NCBI RefSeq assembly: GCF_003313395.1
Contig: NZ_QNFZ01001064.1
Coordinates: forward strand, 1-36,311
From: Nonomuraea lactucae
Lineage (GTDB): Bacteria; Actinomycetota; Actinomycetes; Streptosporangiales; Streptosporangiaceae
Direction: 5' to 3'
DNA length: 36,311 bases
A model generated the notes under the pieces. It saw only the letters and a list, made by a program, of their open reading frames with translations. It searched no databases and had not been told where the DNA came from. Shown here piece by piece: positions 5,730 through 11,195 of this stretch. Made by a program: the position numbers and the translations under genes. The first letter of the stretch is position 1; each line of letters opens with the position of its first letter.

Positions 5730-6239
5730 GTGCTGGACCAGCGGAACCATCAAGGCAAGTTCGCCGAAGACTACGTCCGGGCGCTCGCCTCGGCCGCGGG
5801 GCTCCTCGTCTACACCTACGACCTCGACCATGACGGGATCGATCTCGGCTTCCGTTATCCGGGAAGGGCCGGACACATCTCCTCGCCCGCGATCGAGGTA
5901 CAGGTCAAGTCGTGGTCGGTGCCGTCATGCAAGGGGCCGGACCTGCAATTCCACGGTCTGAACGAGGTGCAGTACAACAAGCTCGCCGCGGGCCCGTTCC
6001 TCGTTCCGCGCTACCTGTTCGTCGTCGTGGTTCCACAGGAGAGCGACCGTTACGCGCGGGTGGAGACCGAGGGGCTGACGCTCAGCCGGCTCTGCTACTA
6101 CCGGGAGTTCGAGGGAGAGCAGCCCATCGCGTCCCCGAGCACGAAGCGCCACCCGTCCATCCGGGTGCCGCTGGGCAACGTCCTCACGGTTCGCGCCTTA
6201 CGCGAGCTCGTCGGCGCGCCCAGCGAGTCGGTCGTTTGA
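5730..6239 (+). CDS. DUF4365 protein, PD-(D/E)XK nuclease-like
   Basis: The chosen GTG at 5730 follows AGGGAG by 5 nt. In-frame GTG codons at 5694 and 5715 are alternatives; the first lies 5 nt after a TAGTGT -10-like hexamer. The 169-residue protein has the DUF4365 pattern: NHQGKFAEDYV at 6-16, the acidic DHDGID at 33-38 and EVQVK at 56-60. G-x3-E, D-G-x-D and E-x-Q-x-K fit the catalytic core of a PD-(D/E)XK nuclease fold. DUF4365 proteins are often found beside ATPases in defence-like loci. Its stop overlaps the start of the next gene (TTGA), the first link of a four-gene coupled unit. Nuclease activity is inferred from the motif. Confidence 0.8.
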   Translation: MLDQRNHQGKFAEDYVRALASAAGLLVYTYDLDHDGIDLGFRYPGRAGHISSPAIEVQVKSWSVPSCKGPDLQFHGLNEVQYNKLAAGPFLVPRYLFVVVVPQESDRYARVETEGLTLSRLCYYREFEGEQPIASPSTKRHPSIRVPLGNVLTVRALRELVGAPSESVV

Positions 6240-7336
6240 CGGCGAACCTGTCGGTCGCCGACATCAACAGCTATCTCGCCGTGACCGGCTGGACCCGTCA
6301 GCCGGAGCAGTGGCGCGGCGCGGCCGTCTGGGTGCACGAAGGCGATCACGAGATCCTGGTGCCCGGCGCGGACGGCCTCGGCGACGGGCCGCGGCGGGTC
6401 AGGGAGATCCTCGCGCTGCTCGCGAAGGTGGAAGGCCGCTCCCGTGAGGACATCGCCTCCGACATCGGCGCGCCCATGGCCGACGTCCAGTGGTACCGCG
6501 CTCCCATCGTCCCGCTGGACGGGCAGTTCGGGCTCCTGGACGCGGTCACGGCGCTCACCAGCGCCCAAGCCGCCCTGAGCGCGGCGGCCCGTGCCGCCCT
6601 GTCCGGATCCCGGCCGGTGTTCGACGGCGTGGCGCCCAGGCAAGTTCGTGAACTGCTCGCTCGCGTCCGGATCGGACCCATCGTGCCATCCGGCGACCTT
6701 CTCACCGTCCGCGTTCCCCTGGATGGCGACGAGTCCGGCGACCCGCCGCTGGCCCGCCGGACCCTGATCCTGCTCCGGCGCGCGACGGTGCTCCTGCGCG
6801 AGGCCGGCGCCGAGGCGCGCAGGACCGGAGACATCAGCGCCTTCGACGGCATCGTGCGGGACGGCGCGTCGGCCGATCTCTGCCTCGCGCTCGCGCGATT
6901 CGCCGGCCGCGATCCCGGCTCCCGTTTCGAGGTCGGCTTCCGCTGGGCGCGGGGGCTGCCCTCCGACGTGCCCGCGGGCAAGGTGGTCTTCGAGGCCGAG
7001 ACGGGAACGCTGCTCCGCCGCGTCGCGCACCGGCTTCGGCGCCTCCACCGTGAGAGCGCTTCGGTCACCGGTCTCATCGGCACGCTCTTCGACAACGGCG
7101 GCGAGGACCGGTTCCGGGTCCACGTCCGCGGCGTCGTGTCGATCGGGGACGGTGAGGCCCGCGGTTCGACCTGGGTGCGGTTGCCCGACGAGACGGCGTA
7201 CGACCTGGCCGTCGAGGCGCACCGGAACGGGAACCCCGTACGCGCTCGCGGCACGCTCATGGAAGTCCACGGCCGTCGCGAACTGGCGGCGACCAGTTTC
7301 GGCAGAGTGACAGACGATCGATCCGAGGAGACCTGA
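6236..7336 (+). CDS. Unknown protein of the DUF4365/HerA module (366 aa)
   Basis: I choose the TTG at 6236 because it overlaps the upstream stop as TTGA and the homologous-looking N-terminus (ADINSYLAVTGW) begins right after it. The upstream part of the frame only shadows the DUF4365 gene. The protein is soluble and mixed alpha/beta. The N-terminal 70 residues read like a small domain (YLxxTGW, then HEILVPG and a helix with EILALLAKVEGR). The middle is helical and Ala-rich. The C-terminus looks beta-rich (FRVHVRGVVSIGDGEARG, later ARGTLMEVHGRREL), perhaps an OB-like fold. I do not recognise a named family. Tight coupling suggests a structural or adaptor subunit working with the nuclease-like protein and the ATPase. 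Confidence 0.8.
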   Translation: MTANLSVADINSYLAVTGWTRQPEQWRGAAVWVHEGDHEILVPGADGLGDGPRRVREILALLAKVEGRSREDIASDIGAPMADVQWYRAPIVPLDGQFGLLDAVTALTSAQAALSAAARAALSGSRPVFDGVAPRQVRELLARVRIGPIVPSGDLLTVRVPLDGDESGDPPLARRTLILLRRATVLLREAGAEARRTGDISAFDGIVRDGASADLCLALARFAGRDPGSRFEVGFRWARGLPSDVPAGKVVFEAETGTLLRRVAHRLRRLHRESASVTGLIGTLFDNGGEDRFRVHVRGVVSIGDGEARGSTWVRLPDETAYDLAVEAHRNGNPVRARGTLMEVHGRRELAATSFGRVTDDRSEET

Positions 7337-7338
7337 CC

Positions 7339-7977
7339 ATGGAGAACACCGCCTTGAGGCCCCGCGAACGGGCTCTGCTTCTCGGCCTGATGACGCTCGG
7401 CGGATCGGCGTCCAACCTCGAACTCCGAGACCACGTCGGCGACGCGCTCGACGGCGAGCCCCGGCGCCGTCTGAACAGGCTCGGTCTCGTCGAAAGCGAC
7501 AAGCCGGGCAGGACGTACCATCACACGCTCACCGAAGGCGGCTGGACCTGGTGCGTGGCCGAACTCGCGGGCACCGCCCCGGCAGCACGCAGTGGACCGC
7601 TCGCCCGCACCCTCTACGGCGTTCTCGGCCTGCTCAAGGGCTACCTCGACGCGACGGACCTGAGCCTGGCGGAGTTCGTCGTCACGGCCCGGACGGACGG
7701 CACCGCGAAGGCCGTTCCCCTGACACAGGCGATCCGGGACGCCTACTGGCGGCTGGCACGCGAACCACAGGACTGGGTGCTCCTGACCCGGCTCCGCCCG
7801 CTCCTCGGGAACGTTCCCCCCGACGAGGTGGACGAGGCGCTGCGGCGGCTGGAACTGCTCCCGGACGTCCACTTGGCGCCGGAGGCGGACCAGAAGACCC
7901 TGACCGACGATGACAGGGAAGCGGCCGTGCTCGTGAGCGGAGTGAGCAAGCACCTGCTGGCGATCGAGGCACGATGA
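7339..7977 (+). CDS. Winged-helix-like protein of the DUF4365/HerA module (212 aa)
   Basis: The ATG at 7339 lies 2 bp after the previous stop and is preceded by GAGGAG. Residues 5-70 resemble a winged helix-turn-helix: a first helix RERALLLGLMTLGG, a recognition-type segment ASNLELRDHVGDALDGEPRR and a wing with LGLVESD and YHHTLTEGG. The C-terminal 130 residues are helical and unassigned. It may be a DNA-binding specificity subunit or a regulator of the module; the coupling on both sides argues for a subunit. Its stop overlaps the next start as ATGA. The fold call is by eye and needs structure prediction. Confidence 0.75.
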   Translation: MENTALRPRERALLLGLMTLGGSASNLELRDHVGDALDGEPRRRLNRLGLVESDKPGRTYHHTLTEGGWTWCVAELAGTAPAARSGPLARTLYGVLGLLKGYLDATDLSLAEFVVTARTDGTAKAVPLTQAIRDAYWRLAREPQDWVLLTRLRPLLGNVPPDEVDEALRRLELLPDVHLAPEADQKTLTDDDREAAVLVSGVSKHLLAIEAR

Positions 7978-10900
7978 ACGAATCCGAGGAACGGGCGCTG
8001 CGCGCCGTCTCCAGGGTCCTCGACTGGGCGACAACCGCCGAGCATGCCTGGAACCCACCTCCCTTCCACGTCGACGGGATGCACCCGAGGGCGGAGCGGC
8101 TGATCCTCGACGGCATCGACGAGGCGTCCCTCGCCTCCCGGACGAGCCCGCTCGGGGTCGTGATCCAGGGGGAGGGCGGCGCGGGCAAGACCCACCTCCT
8201 CGGCTGGGTCAGGGGCAGGATCGCGCAGGCGGGCGGCTACTTCTTCCTGGTCGACTTCAGCGCGGGAGAGGATTTCTGGCGTCAGACCACGGGCGCGATG
8301 GTCGAGGACCTGGGCCGCTCGGCCGCGGGCCCGCAGGCTCCGATCCAGGCGATGGTGGCGCTGCGCGCCCTGGCCGCGCTCGCGGGAGCCGGTGACCGGA
8401 TCGGGGCGGCGATCGAGCGGGACACGGGCATCACCCGAGACGATCTCGACGCTCTGGTGGACGGCCTGCTGGCCAGGGATCGACGGCTCCTGCGGTGCCG
8501 GGACACCATCCGTGCCCTCGCCCTCTACGCCGCCGCCTCCGGCCCGGCACTCGACGTCGCCCACGATCACCTGATGTCGACTGAAGAGGCCGAGGCAGGC
8601 GATCGTCGGGCCTGGGGCATGGGCAGGGGACTCAGGTACCCCCACGACATCGCGGTCGAGCTGTCGATGATTCTCGCGCTGACCGGCCCCAGCGTCATCG
8701 CGGTGGATCAGATCGACGCGATCCTCGGGCACTCCCGGCCGGTCGAGGGAACGGTGGCCGCCACCGCGCCACCCGGCACGGAGCCCCGCAAGGACATGGT
8801 CGACGAGATCGCGGGCGGCCTCATGGCGCTGCGGCACGCCACCCAGCGAGCACTCTGCCTGGTGGCCTGCCTCCCCTCCTCGTGGAATCTGATCAAGGAG
8901 CGTGCCATCGGGACCGCGCAGGACAGGTTCCGTCCGTCGCTGATCCTTGACACGATCGCGAGCGCGGAGATCGCCCGGACCATGGTCGAGCGGCGGTTCG
9001 CCGTGGCTTTCGCGAACGCGGGTTTCACCCCGCCCAGCCCGGTCTGGCCGATCGCCCCCGCCGCGTTCGAGACAGCGCCGGGCCACACTCCGAGGACACT
9101 GCTCCGGCGCATCAGCGCGCACATCGAGGCATGCCGCGCGGAGGGCACGGTGAGCCCGCTGGAGCGCTTCGACCGTGACGGCCCGGGCCACGCGACTTCG
9201 CTCCGCGCCGAGCACGCCCCCGCCGTACCCGAGACGGACCTCGCCCGGCTCGACGCCCGCTTCGCCGCGCTACGCGCGCAGGCCGAGATCGCGAACGCGT
9301 ACGACCCCGAACACGAGGACGAACTCGCTCCCCCGCTGCTCGCCGCGGGCCTCACCGCCTGGATCACGGAGCAGGGCGAGGCCGGCCGCGCCTTCTCCGT
9401 CGACCCGCCGCCTGGCCGCAGGCCCGGTCTCCACGCGAGGCTGCGCCAGGCGCTGGACCCCGACTCGGAGGAACAGCGGCACTGGACGTTCCGGATGATC
9501 GGCGCTCGGCATCCGATCGCGGCGCTCAAACGGCTGACCGACGGCATCGAGGCGTCGGGGCTCGGGCCCGAGATCCCCGACCGGTGTTTCGTCGTCCTGC
9601 GGAACCACGCGTGGTCCGACGGGCCGGCGACCCAGGCCCGTGTCGCTCAGCTCAAGGACTGCGGCGGGCAGGCTCTCACGCTCCGCGGTGACGACCTGCG
9701 CGTGTTCGAGGCGCTGCGCCGGATGGCGGCCGACCAGGATCCAGAGTTCGACACCTGGCTGCGGGCCCGCCGCCCCGCGAGCGGCACCGAACTTCTCAGC
9801 AGCCTGCTGGGAGCGCCGACACCCCCCGATCCAGGCCCGCCACGGCAGGGAGCGGAACCGGCGTCTCCCGAGCCAGGCCCACCGCGGCACGGAGCCGAAC
9901 CGGCGTCCCGCGAGCCAGGCCCACCGCGGCAGGCAGCCGAGCGGGCCTCTCCCGAGCCCTCGGACGGTCACGTGGCCGTCATCCCGGTGGGTAGACGGCT
10001 GGACACCGGCGCCGACCTCTCGCTGAAGCTGGCCATGCTGGCTCGCCACACGGCCGTCTTCGCCGGATCCGGCTCCGGCAAGACCGTGTTCCTGCGACGG
10101 CTCGTGGAGGAGTGCGCGCTGCACGGGGTGTCCTCGATCGTGCTCGACCCCAACAACGACCTCGCCCGGCTGGGCGACGCCTGGCCCGCCCCGCCCCCCG
10201 GGTGGAGCGCCGACGACCCGGACAAGGCGGCCCGCTACTTCGCCGGAACCGAGGTCGTGGTCTGGACCCCCGGCCGCTCCCGCGGGCGCCCGCTCAGCTT
10301 CCAGCCGCTCCCGGACTTCGCGGCCGTCCTGGACGACCGTGACGAGCTGGACTCCGCGCTCAGCCTGGCCGTCTCGGCGCTCGCCCCCCGGGCGAACGTC
10401 GACGGAGCGAGCGCCAAGGCCCGCAAGGGCAAAGCCGTGCTCCGCCAGGCACTGGACCACTTCGCGCGCTCGTGCGGCGGCGACTTCACCGCGTTCCTCG
10501 GCATGCTCGCCGCTCTGCCGTTCGAGGTCAGCCAGATCGACCGGGCGGACCAGATCGCCGCCGAGCTGGGGCAGCTCCTGACCGCCGCCACGATCAACGA
10601 CCCGCTCTTCGCGGGCGACGGCGAGCCGGCGGACCCCGTCCAGCTCCTCACCCCGTCGTCGGGCAAACGGGCGCGCGTATCGGTGATCAGCTTCATCGGC
10701 CTCACGGACGACGCGAAGCCGGGCTTCGTCAGCCAGCTCCAGATGACCCTGTTCTCCTGGATCAAGCAGAACCCGGCGCGTGGCCGCCCCCTGAACGGCC
10801 TGTACGTGATGGACGAGGCGCAGGCCCTCGTGCCGGCCATGCCCAGGACCGAGGCGCTGGCCAGCACGCTGACGCTCGCGTCGCAGGCGCGCAAGTACGG

Positions 10901-11195
10901 CCTCGGCCTCGTCTTCGCCACCCAGGCACCGCGCGGCCTCCACAACCAGATCGCCGGCAACGCCACGACCCAGTTCATCGGCAGGATGAACCGCCCCACG
11001 CAGATCTCCGTCGTCCAAGCGCTGGCCCGAGCCCGCGGCGGCCGGGCCGACCGGGTCGGACGCCTGGACACCGGACAGTTCTATACGGCGAGCGAGAGCA
11101 TCCCCGAAGTGCTGATCCGCACGCCGCAGTGCCTGAGCCACCATCCCACCGGCCCGCTCACCGAACAGGAGATCATGCGGCGCGCGTCCGCATGA
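7974..11195 (+). CDS. Fused AAA-type ATPase and HerA-like DNA translocase (1073 aa)
   Basis: The ATG at 7974 overlaps the upstream stop (ATGA). The protein has two P-loop modules. The first has Walker A GEGGAGKT at residues 66-73 and Walker B VIAVDQID at 241-248, with a following LVACLPSSW strand that resembles sensor 1 of AAA/STAND-type ATPases such as the large BREX ATPases. A linker at 620-661 holds three 14-residue Pro-rich repeats. The second module has Walker A GSGSGKT at 698-704, Walker B YVMDEAQ at 944-950 and an ATQAPRGL segment, then a GNATTQFIGR segment typical of HerA/FtsK/VirB4 (DUF87) motor proteins. It should pump or remodel DNA, with the N-terminal ATPase in sensing or loading. 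I know of no characterised protein with exactly this architecture. Confidence 0.85.
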   Translation: MNESEERALRAVSRVLDWATTAEHAWNPPPFHVDGMHPRAERLILDGIDEASLASRTSPLGVVIQGEGGAGKTHLLGWVRGRIAQAGGYFFLVDFSAGEDFWRQTTGAMVEDLGRSAAGPQAPIQAMVALRALAALAGAGDRIGAAIERDTGITRDDLDALVDGLLARDRRLLRCRDTIRALALYAAASGPALDVAHDHLMSTEEAEAGDRRAWGMGRGLRYPHDIAVELSMILALTGPSVIAVDQIDAILGHSRPVEGTVAATAPPGTEPRKDMVDEIAGGLMALRHATQRALCLVACLPSSWNLIKERAIGTAQDRFRPSLILDTIASAEIARTMVERRFAVAFANAGFTPPSPVWPIAPAAFETAPGHTPRTLLRRISAHIEACRAEGTVSPLERFDRDGPGHATSLRAEHAPAVPETDLARLDARFAALRAQAEIANAYDPEHEDELAPPLLAAGLTAWITEQGEAGRAFSVDPPPGRRPGLHARLRQALDPDSEEQRHWTFRMIGARHPIAALKRLTDGIEASGLGPEIPDRCFVVLRNHAWSDGPATQARVAQLKDCGGQALTLRGDDLRVFEALRRMAADQDPEFDTWLRARRPASGTELLSSLLGAPTPPDPGPPRQGAEPASPEPGPPRHGAEPASREPGPPRQAAERASPEPSDGHVAVIPVGRRLDTGADLSLKLAMLARHTAVFAGSGSGKTVFLRRLVEECALHGVSSIVLDPNNDLARLGDAWPAPPPGWSADDPDKAARYFAGTEVVVWTPGRSRGRPLSFQPLPDFAAVLDDRDELDSALSLAVSALAPRANVDGASAKARKGKAVLRQALDHFARSCGGDFTAFLGMLAALPFEVSQIDRADQIAAELGQLLTAATINDPLFAGDGEPADPVQLLTPSSGKRARVSVISFIGLTDDAKPGFVSQLQMTLFSWIKQNPARGRPLNGLYVMDEAQALVPAMPRTEALASTLTLASQARKYGLGLVFATQAPRGLHNQIAGNATTQFIGRMNRPTQISVVQALARARGGRADRVGRLDTGQFYTASESIPEVLIRTPQCLSHHPTGPLTEQEIMRRASA
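9831..9956 (+). repeat. Three 42-bp tandem repeats coding a Pro-rich linker
   Basis: Three imperfect 42-bp copies encode PGPPRQGAEPASPE-type units (residues 620-661) between the two ATPase modules of the fused translocase. The unit keeps the reading frame and reads as a flexible linker, so copy number could vary without breaking the protein. Confidence 0.85.

Follow-up and report, generated by a model that had tools for sequence, protein, structure and literature searches.

The window analysed here is one whole contig (NZ_QNFZ01001064.1) of 36,311 bases from the 8.67-Mb genome of the actinobacterium Nonomuraea lactucae. It carries four closely packed genes, which we call A, B, C, and D, and the closest relatives of this quartet belong to Nonomuraea species. 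Comparison with related loci suggests that the quartet unites two separable modules, a presumed nuclease pair (A-B) and a putative DNA motor (C-D), the latter occurring in most of the relatives read with one of two alternative nuclease modules. The four genes are:

5730-6239, plus strand: gene A, GTG start, 169 amino acids; DUF4365 PD-(D/E)XK-type nuclease, PADLOC PDC-M02A
6236-7336, plus strand: gene B, TTG start, 366 amino acids; PADLOC PDC-M02B
7339-7977, plus strand: gene C, 212 amino acids; winged helix-turn-helix (wHTH)-like
7974-11195, plus strand: gene D, 1073 amino acids; ORC/Cdc6-type AAA+ fused to a HerA/FtsK ATPase

A first, sequence-only reading of this DNA had described a coupled four-gene layout, which was borne out: the open reading frames are intact, A and B overlap in TTGA (6236-6239), B and C are separated by 2 nt (7337-7338), and C and D overlap in ATGA (7974-7977). 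The A/B overlap is kept in 32 of 35 non-redundant quartets and the C/D overlap in 34, being 4 nt long in 33 of the latter; these counts favour tight junctions because the script chose, among the possible starts, the one closest to the stop of the preceding gene. The ratio of nonsynonymous to synonymous substitution rates, calculated for five pairs, was 0.10-0.20 for A, 0.28-0.38 for B, 0.16-0.57 for C, and 0.23-0.28 for D. All four genes are under purifying selection, A on the whole most strongly, and the four-gene arrangement is confirmed as real rather than a product of chance.

The presumed nuclease pair A-B

The product of gene A had been taken for a DUF4365 nuclease-like protein, and this assignment holds. 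It matches Pfam DUF4365 (PF14280) with an E-value of 8.4e-11 (42.5 bits against a cut-off of 24.3) as well as the PADLOC model PDC-M02A (PDLC04277, E 2e-70), and the expected G-x3-E, D-G-x-D, and E-x-Q-x-K motifs are present as G9-x3-E13, D35-G-x-D38, and E56-x-Q58-x-K60. The conserved sites of A and the assigned fold of B are located as follows:

5826-5843, plus strand: residues D33-D38 of A, conserved acidic pair, invariant in 51 aligned A proteins
5901-5909, plus strand: Q58-x-K60 of A, presumed catalytic; Q58 in 52 and K60 in 50 of 55 quartet loci
7055-7306, plus strand: residues 274-357 of B, C-terminal oligonucleotide/oligosaccharide-binding (OB) fold

D38 is present in 53 of the 55 quartet loci and in 75 of the 82 A-B-only loci having an A. 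From these residues, A is presumed to be a nuclease with a Q-x-K active site. In SPARDA, target recognition by the Argonaute partner triggers non-specific DNA cleavage by a DUF4365 protein; the active-site residues Q62 and K64 of this protein were proposed from an alignment, and a Q62A/K64A double mutant is described as inactive (PMC10810196). The Q62/K64 motif is the same as Q58-x-K60 of A when the two proteins are compared by motif, unaligned. A further contig of the window's genome (G000:C998, 41103-41489, loci L001 and L161) also gives a DUF4365 match, with E 3.9e-17.

B, which the sequence-only reading had left without a family, now has a catalogue match (PDC-M02B, PDLC04335, E 2e-140) and a C-terminal OB fold, but its N-terminal ~270 residues are without fold assignment; the fold searches covered mainly residues 268-361 of B and 4-408 of D. 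The AlphaFold2 model of B has a mean predicted local distance difference test score of 89.5. Profile searches of the PDB gave no convincing relative for either A or B. Adjacent PDC-M02A and PDC-M02B genes, here with a 4-nt overlap, constitute the PADLOC candidate system PDC-M02; A and B match both of its proteins, and PDC-M02A and PDC-M02B are the only models among the matches listed for the pair. The locus differs from the catalogue entry in that the pair is joined to C-D, D matching the PADLOC mad8 and HerA models instead. No paper on PDC-M02 was found in the literature searched, which was mostly open literature; for DUF4365, no operon description was found, and the defence-related work, to judge by titles and abstract starts, concerns short Argonaute systems.

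The putative AAA+-HerA motor C-D

D had been described as a 1073-residue protein with two P-loops, the second of them HerA-like, and the profile searches agree: Pfam DUF87/HerA matches over its cut-off with an E-value of 2.8e-10, and the profile comparison with HerA structures gave an E-value of 3.2e-12. At the N-terminal P-loop, the NACHT and AAA_16 models of Pfam match under their cut-offs, and this part of D is assigned to the ORC/Cdc6 clade of AAA+ proteins. The following elements were located in D:

8169-8192, plus strand: residues 66-73, first Walker A, GEGGAGKT
8694-8717, plus strand: residues 241-248, first Walker B, ending in DQID
9219-9809, plus strand: residues 416-612, conserved alpha/beta domain between AAA+ and HerA, from DSSP of the model and the alignment
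10065-10085, plus strand: residues 698-704, HerA Walker A, GSGSGKT
10803-10823, plus strand: residues 944-950, HerA Walker B, YVMDEAQ

Among 33 aligned D proteins, the window's included, the residues G66, G69, G71, K72, T73, D245, Q246, and D248 of the AAA+ site and G698, G700-T704, D947, and E948 of the HerA site are invariant; both ATP sites are, by their sequence, intact. The intervening domain has the order strand-strand-helix-strand-helix-strand in DSSP of the model. No catalytic motif is visible in residues 416-612, and no meaningful PDB profile match was obtained for them; by topology only, the modelled domain is possibly an inactive restriction endonuclease (REase)-like domain.

The winged-helix-like character ascribed to C has as its sole basis a Pfam HTH_27 match that lies under the cut-off (E 0.0071), and no PADLOC model matches C at an E-value of 1 or better. 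Matches to the C-terminal portion of C also lie inside other proteins (L111, 6085-7308, 407 amino acids; L153, 1-7095, more than 2300 amino acids as called), so this portion may be a domain in its own right.

Exchange of the nuclease module

At most C-D loci, a gene of ~340 amino acids, here called E, lies directly upstream of C. Its C-terminal end is a DUF559 nuclease domain (three E proteins, Pfam E-values 6e-11 to 8e-13), and the E profile matches the endonuclease-like structure 3hrl in the PDB (E 8.6e-9); no PADLOC match was found for the three E proteins scanned. Across the 146 C-D loci read, the slot upstream of C-D is occupied by A-B in 55, by E in 81, by neither in 10, and by both in none, and we therefore regard A-B and E as alternatives for one slot. 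The non-redundant set of D proteins divides similarly into 35 with A-B, 77 with E, and 9 with neither, and 123 genomes of the order sample with loci read include 75 with E-C-D, 20 with A-B-C-D, and 7 having C-D with neither. One genome (G120) carries both A-B-C-D and E-C-D loci, and another (G295) has A-B-C-D plus C-D with neither. From these sequence comparisons, C-D is best read as a motor with an exchangeable nuclease.

A relationship of E to A or B was rejected, as profile comparisons were negative for E with B (probability 0.7%) and for E with A (0.2%). No relationship emerged from the profile comparison of E with residues 416-612 of D, either. At two loci of the window's genus, L127 (C at 6264-6899) and L129 (C at 6161-6811), C-D occurs without E or A-B, and a common protein of 620-720 amino acids, which may represent a third type of partner, is encoded directly upstream; at L089, a relative of this protein precedes E. 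In Tsukamurella tyrosinosolvens (L251, 5684-10652), E-C-D together with a VapBC pair and a DEAD-box helicase lies between rplN and rpsQ in the ribosomal protein cluster.

The two modules also differ in their distribution. Of the 298 genomes sampled from the window's order, 56 contain B. At the 61 B places read (60 of 65 listed and the window's own; 4 of the 65 were left out as fragments or second copies), A is always present, C and D are both present at 20 in the order A-B-C-D, and neither was found at the other 41. A partly overlapping set of named B loci (80 of 141 relatives) contains 35 with A-B-C-D, from Nonomuraea, Sphaerisporangium, Spongiactinospora, Actinomadura, Actinocorallia, Frankia, Streptomyces, Phytohabitans, Paractinoplanes, Lentzea, and a metagenome-assembled genome of Streptosporangiales; the remaining 45, from several phyla according to the titles of their records, have B without C-D, with A detected in 41. 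In all, A-B or B alone occurs without C-D at 86 loci, 5 of which end within 700 nt past B, where C-D is possible, and with C-D at 55; as the named loci and those of the order sample overlap, the counts of 146, 55, and 86 include some genomes twice. C and the N-terminal half of D occur in 103 and 101 of the 298 genomes, respectively, with 100 in common (thresholds E 1e-3 and E 1e-30; two weak C genomes, G033 and G045, were left out of the locus reading), which is far more genomes than carry the quartet. Conservation of the four genes together is thus found in 20 of the 298 genomes and in 35 of the 80 named loci, but the genes are separable, A-B being, in the loci read, more often without C-D than with it and C-D more often with E.

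Among the 24 genomes of the window's genus with loci read, 11 have E-C-D, 9 A-B-C-D, 4 A-B without C-D, and 3 C-D with neither partner, and at least 20 sampled genomes of the genus are without D. This patchy spread fits defence or any other accessory function. E-C-D was also found on one Tsukamurella and one Methylobacterium record of a plasmid collection. Relatives of A-B occur on six contigs of a viral collection, A being detected on 4, with no C, D, or E in the stretch covered.

Genomic neighbourhood of A-B

A-B without C-D is likely to be defence-associated in the order, as the genes beside it suggest. A scan of 136 proteins encoded near it gave matches to 138 PADLOC families, whereas a control of 140 proteins, drawn from ten arbitrary stretches in seven genomes with a quartet, gave matches to 2. 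These scans count PADLOC families (at most 25 listed), not proteins; many of the families model one kind of protein in parallel, and mad3 has matches in 6 proteins of the control and likewise in 6 of the A-B-only set. The proteins scanned were 136 of 289 for A-B only, 140 of 218 for the quartet, 140 of 431 for E-C-D, and 140 of 160 for the control. Nine neighbours of A-B were picked for their recurrence; this set includes products of DISARM-, Dpd-, and Gabija-type genes, namely the DrmA, DrmB, and DrmC of a single locus (L041), a helicase resembling DpdE/DrmD, another resembling GajB, and a protein resembling DrmMI. The drmC-drmB-drmA set of L041 (9924-16083) adjoins A-B without C-D, and the same gene clusters are present at L040 and L043. 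At L069 (5623-9344; also at L060 and L065), proteins of 577 and 636 amino acids with partial mad3 matches, one also matching mad8, adjoin A-B. The proposal of a candidate defence system thus gains support from the neighbourhood of A-B without C-D, but weak support from that of the quartet itself.

Comparison with known systems

The locus resembles the 'HerA/FtsK capture systems' of Rakesh, Aravind, and Krishnan, in which an ORC/Cdc6 ATPase is proposed to localise the apparatus and HerA to pump invader DNA to a nuclease (PMC10853773); a 2026 survey of BREX applies the same logic to related systems (PMC12839542). Their ORC/CDC6 branch likewise combines an ORC/Cdc6 AAA+ domain, HerA/FtsK, an active nuclease, and a wHTH, with the domains in one or several polypeptides and the nuclease from either of two families (PMC10853773). 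D has both the ORC/Cdc6-clade AAA+ and the HerA/FtsK parts, and A, a DUF4365 protein with D33, D38, Q58, and K60, would correspond to the active REase-fold nuclease. For the wHTH, C offers the HTH_27 match under the cut-off, and residues 416-612 of D may, by modelled topology only, correspond to the inactive REase described between the AAA+ core and a C-terminal wHTH. The main text of that paper has no occurrence of DUF4365, DUF559, Vsr, or OB-fold, and an overlap with an example drawn in it is possible (PMC10853773). The sequence-only reading knew of no described system of this composition; as stated, this is not right because PDC-M02 was already catalogued and the combination of ORC/Cdc6, HerA/FtsK, nuclease, and wHTH is of a described kind, the capture systems (PMC10853773). 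We did not find a description of nuclease-module exchange on one AAA+-HerA motor or of PDC-M02 captured by such a motor. A search of mostly open literature, largely by titles and abstract starts, yielded no DUF559-wHTH-AAA-HerA or DUF4365-HerA operon; DUF4365 and DUF559 have no occurrence in PMC12839542, nor have DUF4365, PDC, OB-fold, Mrr, and HerA in PMC12458937.

The locus does not correspond to the other systems considered. DUF4297-HerA and SIR2-HerA likewise combine an effector with a HerA-type ATPase, but the effector is of another family, the partner here being DUF4365. SIR2-HerA is a two-gene system. The HerA_antiphage models score D at 23.6 and 9.6 bits against cut-offs of 800 and 850, which places it outside both. 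DUF4297-HerA consists of two genes, against four here; its nuclease is activated by assembly on the HerA hexamer, and it defends through abortive infection (PMC11291478). With respect to HerA-NurA, D reaches 37.9 and 22.8 bits against NCBIfam equivalog cut-offs of 800 and 970, and no NurA match is among those listed for A, B, and C (Pfam, NCBIfam). The mad8 profile of MADS covers the HerA half of D (E 1.2e-20) and leaves the AAA+ half uncovered, and the set mad1-mad8 is incomplete, with no mad match among those listed for A, B, and C. Neither a BREX model among the PADLOC matches listed for A-D nor a Dnd or Dpt model among the matches listed (Pfam, NCBIfam, PADLOC) was found, which sets the locus apart from BREX with its BrxC and from DndFGH/DptFGH. 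BrxC is not known to contain HerA.

Origin of the union and proposed mechanism

In a D tree of 72 rows, one branch splits 35 A-B rows from 37 E rows with a Shimodaira-Hasegawa approximate likelihood-ratio support of 99.6; four long E rows and nine neither-partner rows were dropped from this tree, and every second E row was used. In the B tree, one branch likewise splits 38 C-D-linked rows from 84 others with a support of 98.8. With the row omissions in the D tree, the trees point to a single origin of the union, and a single union of A-B with C-D is the simplest reading.

We consider it on balance probable that A-B-C-D is a DNA-interception and cutting machine composed of two separable modules. 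D would form a ring on DNA, where its ORC/Cdc6-clade AAA+ half might help in loading on, or staying at, chosen DNA and its HerA half would pump duplex DNA. C could serve as a DNA-binding adaptor. Through its OB fold, B would hold A on DNA, probably single-stranded or unwound, and control it. Foreign DNA met at entry, replication, or transfer would be fed by the motor to A and cut there, and the C-D motor would be independent of any one nuclease, E being found in the slot of A-B in most relatives read. The sequence-only reading had seen the quartet as one DNA-sensing and cutting complex; the nuclease family of A and the HerA motor fused to AAA+ support it, but the genes form two separable modules, and the physical complex is what we infer. 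A bolder version, which we regard as possible rather than probable, is that C-D acts generally as an interception engine into which different nucleases can be plugged, and that once in actinobacterial history it took up the whole of PDC-M02, together with the OB-fold guard, where its own DUF559 nuclease had been, giving rise to a composite immune machine with a single-strand sensor and a double-strand pump in series.

Several observations weigh against the interception-and-cutting reading. In the full D tree of 121 rows with the long rows kept, the label A-B needs three changes, not one: L252 (E) stands beside Streptomyces A-B rows, and L197 (A-B) is paired with L100 (neither). All of the trees come from quick searches under a simple model, with long-branch warnings and the root unplaced. 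The defence signal in the flanks of both A-B-C-D and E-C-D is weak, and islands are not clear. The 140 quartet neighbours match 41 PADLOC families, and among the best 25 of these, 22, mainly PD-T4-6 models, are matched by two proteins each; we take the matched PD-T4-6 models to be kinases. The 25 listed also contain PDC-S01, a type IV restriction enzyme, and PDC-S11, each with a strong match in one protein. The E-C-D neighbours match 29 families, the best 25 listed being the same kinase-type set only, and in some genera E-C-D lies between conserved neighbours like a stable chromosomal locus. A comparison of D with 50,697 phage records at E 1e-10 gave no match. Finally, the Q-x-K motif is altered in A of 5 of the 55 quartet loci, some genomes being doubly counted (L016, L188, L023, L184, and L233), and some quartet copies appear to be decaying, since, besides these alterations, the B match is shortened at L184 and the A match is split at L233.

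The altered active sites of A (L016/L188, L023/L184, L233) might also be expected of a costly gene, as in abortive infection, where recognition of the invader by C-D would release A to degrade DNA without discrimination, that of the host included. The SPARDA DUF4365 nuclease degrades DNA non-specifically when activated (PMC10810196), and DUF4297-HerA defends through abortive infection (PMC11291478). Sequence cannot separate collateral from targeted cutting, and collateral killing needs no pumping motor; we hold this explanation to be rather unlikely. A housekeeping role, in which C-D with a nuclease would serve DNA-end processing or chromosome maintenance like HerA-NurA and A-B would have been recruited for repair instead of defence, might account for the N-terminal half of D in 101 of the 298 genomes, the conserved neighbours of E-C-D in some genera, and flanks without clear defence enrichment; archaeal HerA-NurA reportedly performs end resection (PMC12977600). 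The patchiness within the window's genus, the plasmid-collection records of Methylobacterium and Tsukamurella, the defence-island character of A-B without C-D, and the scores of D under the NCBIfam cut-offs for HerA repair helicases argue against that role, which we judge unlikely. That A-B and C-D are two independent systems on one transcript is very improbable, for although A-B is without C-D at 86 loci, including the 5 that end shortly past B, and C-D is without A-B at 91 of 146, the order A-B-C-D with its tight junctions is kept from Nonomuraea to Streptomyces and Frankia, and A-B takes exactly the slot of E, the two never being together in the C-D loci read.

On the reading of the quartet as an interception and cutting machine, the catalogue entry PDC-M02 gains a likely working context and presumed catalytic residues, and it becomes tied to a motor family whose defence role is a prediction in the literature found. 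The natural swap, in which the same AAA+-HerA motor occurs with either of two nuclease modules, makes the capture-system idea testable because, with a nuclease-agnostic motor, activity should survive the exchange of A-B for E on one C-D.

Surroundings of the locus

A scan of 20 other open reading frames of the window assigned 15 to Pfam families, which are without exception of ordinary chromosomal kinds, and gave no Pfam match at E 0.001 for the remaining five. A TAP-like hydrolase is encoded upstream of A on the same strand, 44 nt off, and was excluded as a member of the module because the upstream genes differ among quartet loci. In an empty-site comparison by the flanks, none of the 44 other genomes of the genus had a match for the downstream gene at E 1e-60. 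The hydrolase, which belongs to a large family matched in 41 of 45 genomes of the genus, was uninformative for this comparison. Flanking genes vary among most quartet loci, and some close loci have flanks in common, namely L014 with L015 and L017 with L018.

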